A DNA stretch of 64,000 nucleotides, taken from the NCBI GenBank assembly GCA_002684495.1, contig NYVG01000007.1, forward strand, positions 139,959 to 203,958, given 5' to 3'. Positions within the stretch are counted from its first letter, which is position 1. Each line of letters opens with the position of its first letter. A model generated the notes under the pieces. The model saw nothing but the letters and a program-made list of their open reading frames with translations, was not told where the DNA came from and did no database searches. The stretch is from Gammaproteobacteria bacterium. GTDB taxonomy: Bacteria; Pseudomonadota; Gammaproteobacteria; Pseudomonadales; Azotimanducaceae. Made by a program: the position numbers and the translations under genes. This document shows, in pieces, positions 8,535 through 46,887 of the stretch.

Positions 8535-8687
8535 CGCGGTTGTTGGTCATATATCTCAGCCGTCTCCATCGCTTGCAACAACAGTTGTGGCCGCATCAAG
8601 CCTCGGCCGCTTGCCTTCCCCCAAGCAAACCGGCAAAGTTTTAGCGTGACTGGCGGCAATCAAGCCCACTGTATAAGGGGAGAAGAT

Positions 8688-10145
8688 ATGAGCGATCTAG
8701 CATTTTTATCGGCTACGGAATTGGCCGCCAAAGTTGCTGCGAAGGAAATTTCTGCGGTAGAGCTGCTACAGATGTACCTGCAGCGTGTCGACACTTATAA
8801 CCCAGATTTAAATGCGCTGTGTGTCGACATTCGCGACCAAGCCATGACCGACGCTGAAGCCGCAGATGCCGCACTGGCCGAGGGACAGTCCTTGGGCGCA
8901 TTCCACGGCGTACCAATGACCGTTAAAGAGTCCTATAACGTTGCCGGCACAGCCACCACCTGGGGCAATCCAGACTGGCGCGACAATGTCACGACTGAGG
9001 ACGCTGAGTGCGTGAAGAAGCTAAAAGGTGCGGGGGTCAATGTTTTTGGCAAGACTAATGTGCCGCTGTCGTTAGCAGACTTTCAGAGCTATAACGAAAT
9101 CTACGGCACCACCAACAACCCGTACGATCATGGACGCATTCCTGGCGGTTCATCTGGCGGTTCTGCAGCAGCGCTGGCTGCCGGACTAACCGGTCTGGAA
9201 ATTGGCTCAGATATTGGCGGCTCTATCCGTAACCCCGCGCATTTCTGCGGTGTATTCGGTCATAAACCCACCCACGATCTACTTTGGATGCGCGGTCACT
9301 CTGCGCCTGGCGACATGCGCTCCACCCCTGATATTTCGGTAATTGGACCATTGGCACGCTCGGCGGATGACCTGTATTCGGCGATCAAAATAATGGCCGG
9401 CCCTGATGAGATTATGTCTAGGGGCTATCAGCTGAACCTGCCTGAACTTGGCGATCGACCCCTGTCGGAGCTCAAAGTTGGCGTTTGGAAAAACGACGAA
9501 GCCGCCCCGGTTGCCCAAGAGGTTGAGGCGCGCGTGGATCTTGTGGCCGCTGCACTGAGCGATGCGGGCGCGCAAATTACCGAGGAAGCTAAACCTGATT
9601 TTAGTGCAGACCACAGTAACGAGGTTTATCAGCGCCTCCTGCATGCAACCATGGCGTCAAGAATGCCACTGGAAAATTACGAAAGTCTTAAAGCCTATGT
9701 GGCCAACGAACTTGATCCAGAGGATAACAGCAGCACTGCGCAAACACTGCGGGCCCAGGTGGCAAGTTTCAAAGAGTGGAGTCAGGCCAATGAAATGCGT
9801 CACCAGCTGCGCTGGCGTTGGCACGAGTACTTTAAGCAATATGACATTTTGCTCACGCCCATGATGGCCACCGCCGCGTTCCAACATGATCAGCGTCCGT
9901 TTGCCGAACGCTCTCTACAGGTAGATAACCAAGAACGACCCTATTTCGAGCAGGTGTTTTGGGCCGGTTTAACCGGTGTGGCTTACCTGCCGTCAACAGT
10001 GATTCCAACAGGTCTGAATGACATAGGTTTACCTATTGGCATACAAATCATTGGCCCACAATATGGCGATTTAATTACTATCGGAGTGGCGCAGAAGTTG
10101 GAACGAATGGGCTTCGCTTTTCAAGCACCTACTGCTTACCAATAA
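8688..10145 (+). CDS. amidase signature family hydrolase
   Basis: A 485-residue amidase with the full Ser-cisSer-Lys triad: Lys80 in MTVKES, cis-Ser155 in GGSSGGS, and nucleophile Ser179 in SDIGGSI. Such enzymes hydrolyse carboxamides, including aryl and fatty amides and peptide amides. The ATG at 8688 follows AGGGGAGAAG and is preferred to an upstream GTG at 8646. The residues after the nucleophile (RNPAHFCGVFGHKP) are typical of 6-aminohexanoate hydrolase/GatA-like members. Tandem glutamyl-tRNA amidotransferase partners (gatB, gatC) are absent, so this is a catabolic amidase rather than GatA. It is the first of three paralogous amidases within 17 kb. Confidence 0.9.
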   Translation: MSDLAFLSATELAAKVAAKEISAVELLQMYLQRVDTYNPDLNALCVDIRDQAMTDAEAADAALAEGQSLGAFHGVPMTVKESYNVAGTATTWGNPDWRDNVTTEDAECVKKLKGAGVNVFGKTNVPLSLADFQSYNEIYGTTNNPYDHGRIPGGSSGGSAAALAAGLTGLEIGSDIGGSIRNPAHFCGVFGHKPTHDLLWMRGHSAPGDMRSTPDISVIGPLARSADDLYSAIKIMAGPDEIMSRGYQLNLPELGDRPLSELKVGVWKNDEAAPVAQEVEARVDLVAAALSDAGAQITEEAKPDFSADHSNEVYQRLLHATMASRMPLENYESLKAYVANELDPEDNSSTAQTLRAQVASFKEWSQANEMRHQLRWRWHEYFKQYDILLTPMMATAAFQHDQRPFAERSLQVDNQERPYFEQVFWAGLTGVAYLPSTVIPTGLNDIGLPIGIQIIGPQYGDLITIGVAQKLERMGFAFQAPTAYQ

Positions 10146-10174: not shown

Positions 10175-11113
10175 ATGACTACTGCGTTAGCGCATCCAAA
10201 TATTGCTCTGGTGAAATATTGGGGCAAGCAGAGCAAAGCCGGGAATATGCCAGCTACGCCAAATCTGTCCATAACGCTGTCAGAATTGAGTGCTGTTACG
10301 ACGGTTAGCGACAGCGACCATTTTCAATTTCATTTGAATGGCAAACAGGTGGATGATCCGAAAGTCAGCGCGCTTATGAGCACAATGACCGATACCTTCA
10401 ATCTCCCGCCCTTGCACATCGACAGCACTAATAACTTCCCGACCAGCGCCGGTCTTGCATCCAGTGCTGCCGGGTTCGCGGCTTTAGTCACTGGTATTGA
10501 TGCCCATTGCAATCTCGGCATGGACGCAGCCTTGCGCTCTGAATGGGCGCGCCGCGGTTCAGCCAGCGCGGCTCGGTCAATATGCGGCGGCTTTGTAGCA
10601 TTGGTGCCACCCGACTGGCAGGCGCAAAGTTTAGCACCCATAGATCATTGGCCACTTGAGGTCGTGGTAGCCATTACCAGTCATGGCGCCAAGGGGGTCA
10701 GCTCTACCGAGGGTATGGAGCGTAGTCGCTTGACATCACCGTTCTATAACCAATGGCTGCGCAGCGCGGGCGACGACTATGCAGAAGCCTCGGGCGCCAT
10801 TGCCATCCGCGACTTTGCAAAACTCGCGGAAGTCGCAGAACTGAGCTGTCTGAAAATGCACAGCCTTATGCTTACCAGCAGCCCGGCCCTTAGTTATTGG
10901 ACCCCGGCCAGCATTGCCTGCATGGATCGCATTCGCGCGCTGAGAGCACAAGGCGAGGCGGTTTTTTTCACCGTCGACGCCGGACCGCAGATCAAGGCGG
11001 TATGCCTGCCCGAGAGCAGAGGGGCAGTGGCGCAGGCATTATCGGAAGTCCCTGGCGTACTGGAGATCCTATGTTGCCCGCTGGGCGAAGGTGCTCGGAT
11101 CATCGATGACTGA
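10175..11113 (+). CDS. mvaD: diphosphomevalonate decarboxylase
   Basis: A 312-residue GHMP-superfamily enzyme that converts mevalonate 5-diphosphate to isopentenyl diphosphate with ATP. The family signature is clear: NIALVKYWGK near the N-terminus, the phosphate loop TSAGLASSAAGFAAL, the GVSSTEGM motif, and FFTVDAGPQ near the C-terminus. One variation is in the usual GSGSACRS motif, which reads GSASAARS. It leads an operon and is followed after 18 bases by phosphomevalonate kinase, then the HMG-CoA reductase-mevalonate kinase fusion. Genes for several steps of the mevalonate pathway are therefore together. An upstream in-frame ATG at 10160 is possible but less likely. Confidence 0.93.
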   Translation: MTTALAHPNIALVKYWGKQSKAGNMPATPNLSITLSELSAVTTVSDSDHFQFHLNGKQVDDPKVSALMSTMTDTFNLPPLHIDSTNNFPTSAGLASSAAGFAALVTGIDAHCNLGMDAALRSEWARRGSASAARSICGGFVALVPPDWQAQSLAPIDHWPLEVVVAITSHGAKGVSSTEGMERSRLTSPFYNQWLRSAGDDYAEASGAIAIRDFAKLAEVAELSCLKMHSLMLTSSPALSYWTPASIACMDRIRALRAQGEAVFFTVDAGPQIKAVCLPESRGAVAQALSEVPGVLEILCCPLGEGARIIDD

Positions 11114-11131: not shown

Positions 11132-12091
11132 ATGCGCGTAACCGCTCCCGGCAAAGTAGTTTTATTTGGTGAGTACGCGGTACTCACGGGCGCCCCTGCC
11201 GCAGTTATGGCCCTAGACGCCTACGCTTCGGTGAATCTCGCTGCAAGTCATAATGACCAATGGCACTTCAGCAGTGACGGTTTTATAAGCACACCGCACA
11301 GCTCGAGCGGTCACGAACTACCTACCGGTGCCAGCGCCGGCTTTACCACAGCAGTGCTCAACCATTGGGGCTATGCTTCATTACAGGAAATCAGCCAAGC
11401 GCCACTGCAAATACACACCGATACAACAGCGTTTTATCAGCAGCAGCAAAAACTCGGACTCGGCTCCTCTGCAGCGGCATGCACGGCAACCTATTTTGTC
11501 TTGGCACAGCTACTCGAGCGCAGGCCCAACTTAACCGAAGCCCTTGAGATTCACCGCAACTGGCAAGGCGGCAAAGGCAGTGGCTTGGACGTTGCCAGCT
11601 GCTGGTCTGGCGGGGTTATTCGCTTTCAAAACGCCGCAGCCAAAGAACTACCTTGGCCCGACGAACTAAGGTGGCAAATCGTATGGAGCGGCGCCAGTGC
11701 AATGACCACTGATCATATTGCCCACTTTGATCAGTGGTACAGCCGAGGCGAGATCGAGCCACTGAACCAACTCAGCGCCCTCAGCAATGATCTTTGTAAG
11801 ACACCCGACTTAACCCTATTGCAGGCCTATCAGCAGGCGCTGATGGATTTGGATAATTCTGCCAATCTGAAAATATTTTCCGCAGAGCACCAAGAGTTGG
11901 TTAAAATTGCCGATTCCAAGGGACTTGTCTATAAACCCTGTGGCGCAGGCGGCGGCGACATTGGCATAGCATTTGCGGACCATACTCAGCGGCCTTCAAT
12001 TCTCGAAGATTTTCGCGCAGCAGCTACCGCTGCGGGATTTTATTGCCCAACATTGGAGATGGCTCAACATGGCGTCCGATTCGCCCAGTAA
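11132..12091 (+). CDS. phosphomevalonate kinase (GHMP family)
   Basis: A 319-residue GHMP kinase, expected to phosphorylate mevalonate 5-phosphate to the diphosphate. It begins APGKVVLFGEYAVLTG, has the ATP phosphate loop LGLGSSAAAC in the middle, the conserved GKGSGLDVASC, and the C-terminal CGAGGGDIGIAF. The combination of this N-terminal motif and the SGLDVA segment is characteristic of bacterial and yeast-type phosphomevalonate kinases rather than mevalonate kinase. It lies between mvaD and the fusion gene. Its last 23 bases overlap the start of the fusion, which suggests coupled translation. Confidence 0.88.
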   Translation: MRVTAPGKVVLFGEYAVLTGAPAAVMALDAYASVNLAASHNDQWHFSSDGFISTPHSSSGHELPTGASAGFTTAVLNHWGYASLQEISQAPLQIHTDTTAFYQQQQKLGLGSSAAACTATYFVLAQLLERRPNLTEALEIHRNWQGGKGSGLDVASCWSGGVIRFQNAAAKELPWPDELRWQIVWSGASAMTTDHIAHFDQWYSRGEIEPLNQLSALSNDLCKTPDLTLLQAYQQALMDLDNSANLKIFSAEHQELVKIADSKGLVYKPCGAGGGDIGIAFADHTQRPSILEDFRAAATAAGFYCPTLEMAQHGVRFAQ

Positions 12092-14351
12092 CCCGAATAC
12101 CGAATCTTCCGACCTAGACAAAGGGTCGTCACGCATTGCCAACTTTTTTCGCATGCCTGTGGGCGAGCGTATCGCAGCCCTGCACCAGCGCGGCCTTCTG
12201 AACAGCGACGACGTGCATCAGCTGGTGTCAGCGAATCACCAACTTCAGGTCAACGTTGCGGACAAAATGATTGAAAACGTCGTGGGTGTTTTTGGCTTAC
12301 CCATGGGCGTGGCGCTGAATTTTTTGATCAACAATCGTGACTACGTAATACCCTTAGTCGTGGAAGAACCATCGATTGTCGCGGGTCTTTCTGGCGCTGC
12401 ACGGCTGGCGCGCCTGGGTGGCGGCTTTGAATGCGAGCCAGTGACACCAATTCTCATTGGGCAGGTCCAGTCCGTGATTGAGGGCGATGCAAAGACCGCT
12501 ATGCAGGCCTTGATTGATCATAAGACCGATATTTTGGCGCTGGCCAATAGTTTGCACCCCAAGATGGTCGCCCGGGGCGGCGGTGCTGTGGACATCGAAG
12601 TTTTTCACCACCAAGCAGAATATGATGGCCGACAGATGGTGGTTATGCATCTACTAGTCGATACCCGAGATGCCATGGGGGCCAATCTGGTCAATACCAT
12701 GTGCGAAGGCGTCGCTTCCTTAGTCGAGACGCTTACCCATGGCAAAGTATTTTTACGCATTTTGTCGAACCTGACAGATCGCGCGATCGCCCGGGCACGG
12801 GTGCGTATCCCAATTAAAAATCTTGAAGGCAAGGGCTATAGCGGCGAGCAAGTTCGCGACGGCATTGTGCTGGCTAACGATTTGGCTCTGGCCGACCCTT
12901 ATCGGGCCGCCACACACAATAAAGGCATTATGAACGGTGTCGATGCCGTAGCACTGGCAACCGGTAATGACTGGCGCGCCATAGAGGCAGCTGCACACGC
13001 CTATGCCGCACAGAGTGGCCGTTACAAGGCTCTAACAATTTGGCGCAAAGACGAATCCGGCGCCCTTGTGGGTGAAATTAACATTCCGCTGAAAGTAGGT
13101 ACCGTCGGAGGCTCATTAGAGACTAACCCAAGCGTGCGTATTAACCACCGCCTATTGGGCTCTCCTGGCGCGTCGGAACTTGCAGGCATTATGGCAGTGG
13201 TAGGATTGGCACAAAATTTTGCTGCCCTGCGTTCCTTGGCCACCAATGGCATCACCCAAAACCATATGAACCTGCATGCGCGCAGTGTGGCAAGCACGGC
13301 GGGCGTCAGCGAAGAGCACTTTGAAACTGTGGTTGAAGGCCTCATCGAATCCGGCGAAATCAAAGTCTGGAAAGCCCAGGAAATTGCCAAGAACCTGGCT
13401 CGCCAGGTCGTGCGGCCTGAAACATCGGAGCGAGAGTCCGCCTGCGGCAAGATCATAATGCTGGGCGAACATGCGGTAGTTTACGGCCGGCCAGCCATAG
13501 CCCTGCCTATTCCTCTGGCAGTCGAGGCCGCGGTGCGCAAGGAGCCAAGTAATATTGGCAACGGCATCAATGTGGTGATTCCGCGCTGGGGCCTAGAACA
13601 AAAGGTGAGCGCCAGCACTCCGGGTATCGCTGGCATTATGGCCAATCTCATTGAGCAAATGGGCTTAAACGATGAACACATGACTATTGAGGTGTTCCCA
13701 CATGTTCCGCGCGCCATGGGTTTAGGTGGCTCTTCCGCACTGGCTGTAGCGATCATTCGCGCATTAAACCGCACCTATCAACTAGCCTTACCTGAGGTGC
13801 AAATTAATGCCTTAGCGTTCGAATGCGAACAAGCCGCACACGGTCAAGCCTCTGGCGTGGACAATACCGTTGCCACCTACGGCACCCCCCTGTACTACCA
13901 GCGCCAGGGCGATGAACCCAGGTTCGAGACCTTGAGCCTGGGCCAGCCTTTAGAACTGGTTATCGGCATGACCGGTAAAGAAAGTCTCACCGCCGAGACC
14001 GTGGCACGCGTGCGCAGCTCCTGGCAGCAATACCCTGAACGTTATGAAACTCTCTTCGACCAAATCGGCACTCTTACCCAATCAGCGCGCACTGCGTTGC
14101 AAGGCGGCCAACTGCAAGAGCTGGGCGAGCTGATGAATCTCTGCCACGGCTATTTAAATGCACTGCAGCTATCCACACCGAAGCTCGAAGACTTGGTCCA
14201 TATGGCCCGCAGCAATGGCGCTGTGGGGGCTAAACTGACCGGCGGTGGCGGTGGCGGTTCCATGGTTGCACTGTGCCCAGATAGCAGCGAGCGCGTCAGC
14301 AATGCCATGCAAGCTGCCGGCTACAAAACCCTGAGTGTTACTCTAGACTAA
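12069..14351 (+). CDS. fused class II HMG-CoA reductase and mevalonate kinase
   Basis: A 760-residue protein with two complete enzymes. Residues about 20-450 are a class II HMG-CoA reductase: Glu100 in VVEEPSIVAG, the DAMGAN cofactor motif, Lys285 in NKGIMNGVD, Asp301 in TGNDWRA and His399 in QNHMNLHAR. These match the spacing of the Pseudomonas mevalonii enzyme. After a short linker, residues about 456-760 form a mevalonate kinase: GKIIMLGEHAVVYG, the phosphate loop GLGGSSALA (551-559), Asp598 in SGVDNTVA, and the AKLTGGGGGGS motif. It would make mevalonate from HMG-CoA and phosphorylate it. The ATG at 12069 is 23 bases inside the phosphomevalonate kinase gene. Neither half is truncated and no stop or frameshift separates them. 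Confidence 0.93.
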   Translation: MASDSPSNPNTESSDLDKGSSRIANFFRMPVGERIAALHQRGLLNSDDVHQLVSANHQLQVNVADKMIENVVGVFGLPMGVALNFLINNRDYVIPLVVEEPSIVAGLSGAARLARLGGGFECEPVTPILIGQVQSVIEGDAKTAMQALIDHKTDILALANSLHPKMVARGGGAVDIEVFHHQAEYDGRQMVVMHLLVDTRDAMGANLVNTMCEGVASLVETLTHGKVFLRILSNLTDRAIARARVRIPIKNLEGKGYSGEQVRDGIVLANDLALADPYRAATHNKGIMNGVDAVALATGNDWRAIEAAAHAYAAQSGRYKALTIWRKDESGALVGEINIPLKVGTVGGSLETNPSVRINHRLLGSPGASELAGIMAVVGLAQNFAALRSLATNGITQNHMNLHARSVASTAGVSEEHFETVVEGLIESGEIKVWKAQEIAKNLARQVVRPETSERESACGKIIMLGEHAVVYGRPAIALPIPLAVEAAVRKEPSNIGNGINVVIPRWGLEQKVSASTPGIAGIMANLIEQMGLNDEHMTIEVFPHVPRAMGLGGSSALAVAIIRALNRTYQLALPEVQINALAFECEQAAHGQASGVDNTVATYGTPLYYQRQGDEPRFETLSLGQPLELVIGMTGKESLTAETVARVRSSWQQYPERYETLFDQIGTLTQSARTALQGGQLQELGELMNLCHGYLNALQLSTPKLEDLVHMARSNGAVGAKLTGGGGGGSMVALCPDSSERVSNAMQAAGYKTLSVTLD

Positions 14352-20080: not shown

Positions 20081-21475
20081 TTACGGCATCGGATAGTCCA
20101 ATGGACCAAGAACGCGTTCAAACATAGCACCGGCCGCCAACAAACCAGACTCATTAAAGCGCGCGCCGATAAGTTGCACTGATTGCGGCAGGCCATCGCT
20201 GTCTAAGCCTGCCGGTACGTTGAGGGTCGGGTGCCCTGAGTAGTCGAAGGGCGCGGTGAAAGACAAAAATGGCGCAGATTCAGGTTCTAGGCCACCTTGC
20301 TCCATCTGCGCAACAGATGGCCCAGCAATTGGCATGGTCGGTGCCAGCAGCACGTCTACTTCAGTGAGGACCCCATCAAGCTCAGTGCGGAACCGATCAC
20401 GCAAGTTCTGCAATTGCGCATATTCGTCAGCTGACACGGTACGACCAAGTTCTAATAGCCACGTCAGTCCAGGGCCATATCTGTGTGATTGTTGAGGGTA
20501 CATGTTTGCATGGGCACGCATACACTCTACCGCACAGCTTTTACCCCAATCCACGGCCAACTGGTAATAACTTGGTGGCATCGTGACCTTTCGAACCTCG
20601 ACTTTGGTCCCTGCTCGGGCAAGGGCATCAGCAAGAACTTGGGTAACCGCAGCAGGCACACCCGCACTAATGTAAGTCTCATCTATGCCCACAATCACAG
20701 GTTTGTTGGATGGCTGCAGGTACGAAAGATAGGACGGCACCGGCATGTCGGCGCTATTGGGATCTTGCGGGTCATAACCGGCAATGGCCTGGAGCATCCG
20801 CGCGGCATCCTCAACACTGCGAGTCATTGGGCCAATATGATCCAAACTATTCGCCAGCGGAAAGGCCCCGTGGAGACTGACTCTGCCATAGGTCGGTTTC
20901 AAACCCACCAAACCATTGCATGCGGAGGGAAAGCGAATACTGCCGCCGGTATCTGAACCCAAGGACGCGTAGGCAAGGCCTGCTGCTACGGCCACACCAG
21001 ACCCCGAGGACGACACACCGCTCCAAGCATCTGGCGCCCACGGATTTACCGGCGCTGTAATTGAGGGGTGATGGCTGCCATAGGCGCCTTCGGTAAGTTG
21101 GGTCTTACCGATAATAACCGCACCAGCAGCACGCAGCCGGGTAACCACAGTAGCGTCATAATCTGGCTTAAAATCGCGCATGACATCAGTGCCGCTAGCG
21201 GTTTCAACCCCAGCGGTAAACAGCAAATCCTTGATCGCGATGGGTACACCGTGCAGTACACCAAGCGGCGCACCGTTCTGGCGTGACTCATCACAGGCCT
21301 GGGCCTCAGCCAGTGCAGTATCGGTAAGCAGTCGGGCATAGCTCTGGTAGTTACCGTCATGCTCTTCGCAGCGTCGAAGCATACTGCGGGTCACATCTAA
21401 ACTTGCAAGCGCACCACTCTTTACCTGTCGGCACAGCCACGACAGTGATTGGGAATGCAAAGGCGATTGACTCAT
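20081..21475 (-). CDS. amidase signature family hydrolase
   Basis: A 464-residue amidase with the catalytic Lys in VPIAIKDLLF and nucleophile Ser in SDTGGSIRFPS. The glycine-serine loop is variant, GVSSSGSGVAV instead of GGSSGGS, but keeps the serines. The sequence after the nucleophile (ACNGLVGLKPTYGRVSLHGAFPLA) is GatA-like. No gatB or gatC is nearby, so a catabolic amidase is more likely. It is 30 bases downstream of a BCCT transporter on the same strand. The pair may import and hydrolyse a quaternary-ammonium or other small amide, which is inference from context only. Confidence 0.88.
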   Translation of the reverse strand: MSQSPLHSQSLSWLCRQVKSGALASLDVTRSMLRRCEEHDGNYQSYARLLTDTALAEAQACDESRQNGAPLGVLHGVPIAIKDLLFTAGVETASGTDVMRDFKPDYDATVVTRLRAAGAVIIGKTQLTEGAYGSHHPSITAPVNPWAPDAWSGVSSSGSGVAVAAGLAYASLGSDTGGSIRFPSACNGLVGLKPTYGRVSLHGAFPLANSLDHIGPMTRSVEDAARMLQAIAGYDPQDPNSADMPVPSYLSYLQPSNKPVIVGIDETYISAGVPAAVTQVLADALARAGTKVEVRKVTMPPSYYQLAVDWGKSCAVECMRAHANMYPQQSHRYGPGLTWLLELGRTVSADEYAQLQNLRDRFRTELDGVLTEVDVLLAPTMPIAGPSVAQMEQGGLEPESAPFLSFTAPFDYSGHPTLNVPAGLDSDGLPQSVQLIGARFNESGLLAAGAMFERVLGPLDYPMP

Positions 21476-45627: not shown

Positions 45628-46887
45628 ATGCGCAAATATTGGGCCTTTTATTGGCCCCTAGCGCTCACAGCGATCGGCATGGTTTTGTCGATCCAGTTTC
45701 AAAACGCCACCCTCGCACGCTACCCCGATGCCATTACCGAGCTGGCCATACTGGCTCTGTCGCTAGGGGTGTTTAGCTTCTTCAACGCCAGCCAACAATT
45801 CATCGCCCAACTGTCGAATGTTTATGCGCGCAGCAAAGAAGGCAGCCGCCGCGCTTGGCGATTTGTAGTCGCCGCGAGTTTAGTCATCACCGCACCACTG
45901 TTTTTCCTCGCGACCACGACTATCGGCGCATCTTTGATCGAACTGATTTTTAGTATCGAACCTGCAGTAGTCGACCGAGTTAGAGAGTACTTACTACTGC
46001 TCTGCCCCCTTATTTTTCTGAACGGACAACGTCACTACTTCACCGGGTTGCTCGCCCAAGCTCAGCTTACCGGCTGGATCACTCTATTCAATTTCGTCTA
46101 CCTAGGTACTGTTATTACAGCCTTAGTGAGCGGCTTCGCATTGGGTGCTCCGGCAGTCTTGGTAGTGGTGGGCGCAGAGACCTTTGCTGTGTGTTTATTG
46201 ATCGCCTTGTTACTGTTCGCCTATCGCTACTTCTATACCCTGCCTGCGACACCCGAGCACGGTGATGTCGAATACCGAGAGCTGGTCAAATTCTTTATCC
46301 CGGTCTCTACCACTGGCGTCATGTTCGCGCTGTCACGACCGCTATTATTTGCCTTCGTTGCGCGCATGCCCGACGGCTTGCTCACTATTGCGGCTCTGCG
46401 CGTAGCTTTCGATTTCAGCATGATCTTTCAGCAAGCGGCGAATCAGTTTCGCCATTTCTTCATAACCTTCGGCTTCACGGATCTGCAAAACAAGATTCGT
46501 TTTATGATCGTAATTTGCTGCGGCCTGACAGGCTGTATGCTGTTTTTCACACTGACTGAGCTTGCTGATCTGGTCTGGATCAAATCCATGGGGCTGTCCA
46601 CAGAACTGACCAACCTGGCCATAGATGTCACTTTGATCATGTGCCTGATGCCGGCAATTATCATTTACCGAAACTACTACCACGGTCGGTTAATGATGGA
46701 ACGCAAAACCGGCGGTATGGCCTACGCCAGTATCATCCGAGTTATCGGTATCTTCGCCGCCGCACAAGCTCTTTTTGCGCTGCAATGGCTGAACCATGCC
46801 AGTGCCGCATGCGTGTTGATCCTCGGGTTTGCTATCGAGGCTTACTTTGCACGCCTTGCAGTGCATAGGGTGAAAAAAGCCAACTGA
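45628..46887 (+). CDS. multi-pass membrane protein, MOP-flippase or ANK-like
   Basis: A 419-residue integral membrane protein with about 12 hydrophobic segments and short loops. The opening (YWAFYWPLALTAIGMVLSIQFQNATL), the FNASQQFIAQLSNVYARS loop, and a repeat of the same theme after residue 220 (VKFFIPVSTTGVMFALSRPLL) suggest an internally duplicated MATE/MOP-type fold. The overall pattern resembles progressive ankylosis (ANKH)-like proteins, which export pyrophosphate or ATP. This assignment is by eye and uncertain. It follows the YceI gene by 20 bases and differs clearly from the MATE pump at 48977. Confidence 0.6.
   Translation: MRKYWAFYWPLALTAIGMVLSIQFQNATLARYPDAITELAILALSLGVFSFFNASQQFIAQLSNVYARSKEGSRRAWRFVVAASLVITAPLFFLATTTIGASLIELIFSIEPAVVDRVREYLLLLCPLIFLNGQRHYFTGLLAQAQLTGWITLFNFVYLGTVITALVSGFALGAPAVLVVVGAETFAVCLLIALLLFAYRYFYTLPATPEHGDVEYRELVKFFIPVSTTGVMFALSRPLLFAFVARMPDGLLTIAALRVAFDFSMIFQQAANQFRHFFITFGFTDLQNKIRFMIVICCGLTGCMLFFTLTELADLVWIKSMGLSTELTNLAIDVTLIMCLMPAIIIYRNYYHGRLMMERKTGGMAYASIIRVIGIFAAAQALFALQWLNHASAACVLILGFAIEAYFARLAVHRVKKAN

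Follow-up and report, generated by a model that had tools for sequence, protein, structure and literature searches.

A class II HMG-CoA reductase fused to mevalonate kinase recurs across several bacterial phyla

Do some bacteria make two enzymes that act in succession in the mevalonate pathway as one protein, and if so, what would the joining bring and how did it arise? These questions are raised by one gene in a 64,000-nucleotide stretch from a gammaproteobacterium of the Azotimanducaceae (contig NYVG01000007.1, positions 139,959 to 203,958; the whole of this stretch is referred to as the window). The gene, at 12069-14351 on the forward strand, is a single open frame of 760 residues without internal stop, with its ATG at 12069 and its stop codon at 14349-14351, which bears out the coordinates, frame and length given in the initial annotation. 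Residues 18-404 match TIGR00532 (class II hydroxymethylglutaryl-CoA (HMG-CoA) reductase, HMGR; 382 bits, cut-off 259.95, model positions 19-395 of 395), and residues 458-735 match TIGR00549 (mevalonate kinase; 241 bits, cut-off 163.05, model positions 1-276 of 276). The protein is a complete class II HMGR followed, after a linker of about 16 residues, by a complete mevalonate kinase, as had been read from the sequence at first sight. Pfam finds PF00368, PF00288 and PF08544, in this order, and only these; the N-terminal acetoacetyl-CoA thiolase domain of MvaE is absent. The protein is a new domain combination of two known enzyme families that catalyse successive reactions, distinct from the thiolase-reductase fusion MvaE, and here too the initial annotation was right. 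The gene is made up of the following parts.

12069..14351, + strand: fused HMG-CoA reductase - mevalonate kinase gene, 760 residues plus stop; frame kept in relatives
12120..13391, + strand: class II HMG-CoA reductase domain, residues 18-441 (E100, K285, D301, H399); from profile, alignment and model
12555..12575, + strand: cofactor helix HPKMVAR, residues 163-169, an NADPH-like motif according to an excerpt of PMC13370337
reductase domain, + strand: C-terminal flap helices, residues 395-410, 418-428 and 433-447; from the structure model
13392..13439, + strand: linker, residues 442-457; from alignment columns and model (447-452 with pLDDT <50)
13440..14348, + strand: mevalonate kinase domain (GHMP fold), residues 458-760; from profile, alignment and model

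Both domains carry intact catalytic motifs. An alignment to Pseudomonas mevalonii HMGR (1qax) sets Glu100, Lys285, Asp301 and His399 opposite chain residues 83, 267, 283 and 381, which we take to be the catalytic Glu, Lys, Asp and His (E83, K267, D283, H381); the last three had already been picked out from the window alone. In the kinase domain, Lys461, Ser555, Glu587 and Asp598 are presumably the active-site Lys, Ser, Glu and Asp of the GHMP motifs. Across 81 aligned fused rows, the window included, Lys285, Asp301, His399 and Lys461 are identical in all 81, Glu100 is identical in 78 (two of the other three lack the region and one has an X), and Ser555, Glu587 and Asp598 are identical in all 79 rows that extend that far. 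In eight chosen pairs of sequences from the window's genus, uncorrected counts over the two domains give 0.24-0.81 differences per synonymous site, as against 0.003-0.20 per nonsynonymous site, while the 16-residue linker reaches 0.31 differences per nonsynonymous site. Judged by these eight pairs, purifying selection is acting on both domains, and bifunctionality of the fusion protein is well supported by its sequence.

We consider it highly probable that this is a bifunctional biosynthetic HMGR-mevalonate kinase that arose once and spread together with its neighbours. In the mechanism that we infer from the fusion, its intact motifs, the gene order, the single reductase gene of the genome and the absence of two markers of the methylerythritol phosphate (MEP) pathway from a genus sample, the N-terminal class II reductase would make mevalonate from HMG-CoA, with NADPH as the probable reductant. 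The GHMP kinase at the C-terminus, carried on the end of the reductase flap by a short flexible linker, would then convert mevalonate and ATP to 5-phosphomevalonate. Two upstream genes, one resembling phosphomevalonate kinase (PMK) and one for diphosphomevalonate decarboxylase, would carry the product on to isopentenyl diphosphate, and genes at other places in the genome would supply an HMG-CoA synthase (HMGS) homologue and a type I isomerase. What the fusion brings is likely to be two enzymes in a constant 1:1 ratio and close to each other, as an ATP-driven kinase would withdraw mevalonate beside a reversible reductase. The origin would lie in one event, probably the loss of a stop codon between adjacent reductase and kinase genes, after which the fused gene would have spread across phyla with its neighbours.

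How closely might the two active sites be coupled? The structure model comprises two confident domains (mean pLDDT 84.5). The reductase domain has the fold of P. mevalonii HMGR (1qax, 9dcp; TMt 0.89, 48% identity, catalytic residues aligned), which is unfused, and the kinase domain that of Methanosarcina mazei mevalonate kinase (6mde, 6mdf; TMt 0.86 and 0.87, 33-34% identity), which is likewise a stand-alone enzyme, unlike the kinase in the window. As residues 447-452 of the linker have a pLDDT below 50 and the pTM is 0.55, no fixed arrangement of the domains is predicted. Class II HMGR is described as dimeric, with active sites at the interface and, at the C-terminus, three helices that form a mobile flap (PMC10070635; this and all other literature is cited from excerpts), and the kinase domain is attached at the end of this flap. 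Between fixed alignment columns the linker measures 16 residues in the window, as it does in the rest of the genus rows; over the 81 rows it ranges from 9 to 80 residues, with a median of 17. The variable length and the uncertain modelled linker argue against a conserved tunnel, so that model and alignment together make tethering the likelier arrangement.

The initial annotation had called product channelling plausible. Its premise, two successive steps, stands; channelling itself fares less well. True substrate channelling, with mevalonate moving from the reductase site to the kinase site without release and kinase and flap forming one gate, seems to us improbable, even though the kinase hangs on the very flap that closes the reductase site and the linker is constant at 16 columns among genus rows. 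It would also draw on two related loci, L034 (5959-8118) and L038 (2292-4367), which group with Woeseiaceae-like rows in the reductase tree: their aligned sequences lack flap helices 2 and 3, a loss that leaves helix 1, a linker of 9-13 residues and then the kinase, and the catalytic residues are kept. Beside the linker range and the low-confidence junction of the model, two observations speak against channelling. The HMGR active sites lie at the dimer interface, so that domains from different chains may face each other (PMC10070635). Furthermore, a locus from a 1.5 Mb genome of the same class (L149, 193-2463) joins HMG-CoA synthase (TIGR01835, 443 bits) to mevalonate kinase (TIGR00549, 170 bits), both over cut-off; these steps are not consecutive, which means that a pathway fusion need not imply channelling. 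Less probable still is the more specific idea that the kinase is part of the reductase gate, coupling flap opening to mevalonate capture, and that in the L034/L038 lineage it has structurally taken the place of flap helices 2 and 3. If true, the protein would pass mevalonate on by gated transfer, as one bifunctional enzyme and not two beads on a string. The natural linkers of 9-80 residues and the partly flap-less variants provide a ready set with which to test the effect of tethering on flux.

Tethering leaves the direction of the pathway to be considered. The best NCBIfam name for the reductase domain is 'hydroxymethylglutaryl-CoA reductase, degradative', and this label is what would favour a catabolic reductase that oxidises mevalonate and has a kinase attached. 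We regard such a role as very unlikely, because the cofactor helix lacks the Asp typical of NADH enzymes, two MEP pathway markers (DXR and IspG) were not found in the genus sample, and the neighbours of the fused gene are an mvaD gene and a PMK-like gene:

10175..11113, + strand: diphosphomevalonate decarboxylase (mvaD); TIGR01240, 225 bits, cut-off 171; order conserved
11132..12091, + strand: GHMP kinase, probably phosphomevalonate kinase; PF00288, 30 bits, cut-off 22, and position

As for the cofactor, P. mevalonii HMGR is an NADH enzyme with Asp146 (PMC10070635). The first position of the cofactor helix is described as Asp in NADH enzymes and as Tyr or His in NADPH enzymes (PMC12292504), and a preprint gives the motifs Dx(V/L)xxxL for NADH and (H/Y)xSxxxR for NADPH, enzymes that depart from both being reported as promiscuous (PMC13370337). 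In the 1qax alignment, Asp146 of P. mevalonii falls opposite His163 of the window protein; Asp175 had been considered as an NADH determinant and was dropped, since the alignment places Asp146 elsewhere. Among the 80 fused rows with a readable helix, HPKMVAR is the commonest sequence (35 rows), position 1 is His in 78 and position 7 is Arg in 79. These two positions make NADPH the likelier cofactor, and the reductase is probably NADPH-type. With such a helix, the word 'degradative' in the family name is probably misleading, and for annotation this means that one such label covers a fused clade that is probably biosynthetic and probably uses NADPH.

The genomes of the genus point in the same direction. 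The window's own genome contains one HMGR, an HMGS homologue (PF08540, 67.9 bits, cut-off 25.1) and a type I isomerase (150 bits, cut-off 106). The latter is over cut-off in 31 of 40 genus genomes, and a type II isomerase in none of the 40. Neither DXR nor IspG was over cut-off in any of the 40 genus genomes, with 9 of 14 controls positive in each search, nor in any of the 21 with a completeness of 90% or more and a contamination of 5% or less. The absence of both markers from this sample suggests that the mevalonate route is the sole isoprenoid route of the genus, and by these searches it appears to be the only one in the window's organism.

Several points weigh against the biosynthetic reading. 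The HMGS homologue scores under the NCBIfam equivalog cut-offs (233/360 and 244/800 bits), IspG serves as a proxy for the whole MEP pathway, the DXR search did not cover DXR type II, and the genus genomes are drafts, many of them incomplete. The upstream GHMP kinase, probably a phosphomevalonate kinase, takes this name from its position and from scores below every NCBIfam cut-off (TIGR00549, 66 bits; TIGR01220, 60/166; NF040957, 49/500). At position 3 of the cofactor motif, 75 of the 80 readable rows have Lys, Asn or Arg and only one has Ser, so the reductase may also be promiscuous for its cofactor. Lastly, DXR is over cut-off in two of nine other fused genomes from the class and phylum samples described below. 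It was also found in four of 12 fused genomes, of unstated completeness, from the 80 best related loci in a scan of genome contigs, and not found in the other eight. All four are Cryobacterium (L030, L033, L035, L041), in which the fused gene has a long Ala/Pro-rich linker. The fusion seems to occur both alongside the MEP pathway and without it. In the draft genome of Dyella monticola (L010) DXR was not found, DXR being the one MEP marker sought there, and the fused mevalonate genes may have taken the place of the MEP pathway. Some Gammaproteobacteria (the window's genus, perhaps D. monticola) may thus have swapped the MEP pathway for these genes.

Next, we consider how widely the fusion recurs. 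Both domains lie in one open frame in 43 of the 80 best related loci (L002-L039, L041-L045), beyond which a longer list exists; in two of the 43 (L042 and L044) the contig ends downstream of the junction. In the other 37 no fusion is seen; they include nine in which a separate kinase gene adjoins the reductase (L040, L046-L052, L054) and one, L078, that ends at a contig edge before the junction and is uninformative. By record title, the fused loci belong to Pseudomonadota, Actinomycetota, Calditrichota, Acidobacteriota and Planctomycetota, with L025 carrying no phylum; Nakamurella and Planctomycetota are each represented by a single metagenome bin, whereas named strains include D. monticola and Cryobacterium. 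The joined domain order, whose spread the initial annotation had left to be mapped, is widespread among bacteria and found in several phyla. In a sample of 58 relatives, 37 of them from the window's genus, the reductase is present in 32 of the 37 genus genomes, the other five being at most 82% complete. Twenty-nine of the 30 genus-sample loci are fused, counting the window's own, and the thirtieth (L107) runs off its contig. In the class sample of 369 genomes, 27 have a reductase over cut-off and nine of these are fused, the window's own included. In the phylum sample of 398 genomes, four have a mevalonate kinase over cut-off. The kinases of the window and of G789 are joined to HMGR, a third is joined to HMG-CoA synthase, and the fourth is unfused.

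No frameshift or stop was found at the junction, which reads through in the 29 genus-sample loci and in L002, whose protein is 99% identical to that of the window. Although adjacent yet separate reductase and kinase genes do exist in nine loci, a chance or assembly artefact that merged two such neighbours into one frame is ruled out for practical purposes by the recurrence of the fused frame in other genomes, named strains among them. As a separate observation, the reductase and kinase domains of L019, from a record named UBA4421, are identical to those of L093 from the window's genus.

To ask how often the fusion arose, we turn to domain trees. The reductase tree of 115 rows kept seven of the 30 genus loci (L082-L111) and omitted the window copies L001, L105 and L147, as well as L136, L145, L176 and rows with fewer than 300 aligned residues; the 67 kinase rows also omitted unfused matches below 100 bits and matches with fewer than 200 aligned residues. 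For the more careful trees, 23 reductase rows (near-copies, two long branches and others for speed) and five kinase rows (three near-copies and the long rows L043 and L036) were dropped, which left 92 rows in the reductase tree. In this tree all 56 fused rows lie on one side of a single branch (support 100/100, and in 100% of 200 bootstrap trees), and the quick tree of 115 rows recovers the same single group with 60 fused rows. The two unfused rows closest to this group, L040 and L053, are Myxococcota and join at 97/88. L040 contains a reductase, one stop codon and then a kinase in the same frame; loss of this one stop would yield the fusion, or L040 could alternatively be the product of a fission.

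The kinase domain gives a less certain answer. At odds with a single origin, the careful kinase tree sets the unfused L040 inside the fused rows, which requires two changes in all 200 bootstrap trees. The L040 kinase has a branch length of 4.4 and joins at 82/66, a placement without strong support. In quick kinase trees the fused rows form one group at 100 when L040 is left out, and all 58 fused rows form one group at 87 when phosphomevalonate kinase rows are added. By the reductase tree, the fusion is apparently of single origin. Five Cryobacterium rows join Salinisphaera-type rows in both the reductase tree (100/98) and the kinase tree (99/100). This shared grouping points to transfer between phyla, which is the likely history of the fusion in Cryobacterium. 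The link between HMGR and kinase appears to have been made once in nature and kept across phyla.

We found no description of an HMGR-mevalonate kinase fusion among the open-access papers listed by searches on the fusion and on its context, as excerpted, subscription papers lying largely outside the search; within this range, the fusion is not one that was already widely described. The excerpted text of a 2026 review (PMC13001223) gives MvaE as a reductase fusion and makes no mention of one between reductase and kinase, nor does that of a 2026 preprint on the bacterial HMGR tree (PMC13370337), in which the term 'mevalonate kinase' is absent. MvaE of Enterococcus faecalis likewise joins two mevalonate-pathway enzymes including a class II HMGR (PMC10070635, PMC13001223). 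The thiolase of MvaE, however, lies N-terminal to the reductase, and the reaction of HMG-CoA synthase comes between theirs, whereas the partner in the window protein is C-terminal and catalyses the directly following step. IspDF is also a bacterial fusion of isoprenoid enzymes (PMC13001223), but it belongs to the MEP pathway and joins non-consecutive steps. HMGR is described as rate-limiting in the mevalonate pathway (PMC13001223), and joining it to the next enzyme is something that metabolic engineers may wish to try.

The gene neighbourhood of the fusion is largely conserved. In the window, the PMK-like gene overlaps the start of the fusion by 23 bases in a different frame. The order mvaD, PMK-like gene, fusion on one strand is found in 36 of the 43 fused loci, as an order and not always as direct adjacency (in L021 the PMK-like gene and the fusion are 3.3 kb apart). 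One locus, L008, keeps the PMK-like gene beside the fusion and has mvaD farther out on the opposite strand, and in the remaining six the fusion occurs without mvaD or PMK, two of these being on contigs shorter than 4.5 kb. A scan for promoters and terminators found sites no more numerous than in shuffled sequence.

Hopanoid-type genes lie near the fusion in six of the 43 fused loci (L006, L009, L010, L015, L017, L042) and also in L146, all identified by similarity to L015 proteins; L017 has just one such neighbour, HpnA-like and on the opposite strand, and the count leaves out the HpnA-like matches of 31-33% seen in L004 and L007. The names were checked with NCBIfam in L015 (squalene-hopene cyclase, 792 bits; HpnH, 505 bits) and L146 (HpnH, 418 bits), and the squalene synthase-like and HpnB-like genes of L015 are below cut-off. 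A hopene cyclase was over cut-off in 0 of 40 genus genomes, with weak matches in four, in a search in which 0 of 14 controls reached the cut-off, although the model used is the one that gives 792 bits with the L015 cyclase. Hopanoid supply was considered as a general role for the fusion and set aside, as such neighbours occur in a minority of fused loci; together with the genus result, this makes it an unlikely role in the window's organism.

Two further features of the window were noted. Amidase-family proteins at 8646-10145 and 20081-21475 lie about 10 kb apart on opposite strands, flanking the mevalonate genes, the second of them below the NCBIfam cut-offs shown. At 45628-46887, a protein of 419 residues has a weak match to PF07260 (ANKH, progressive ankylosis; 25 bits, cut-off 22).

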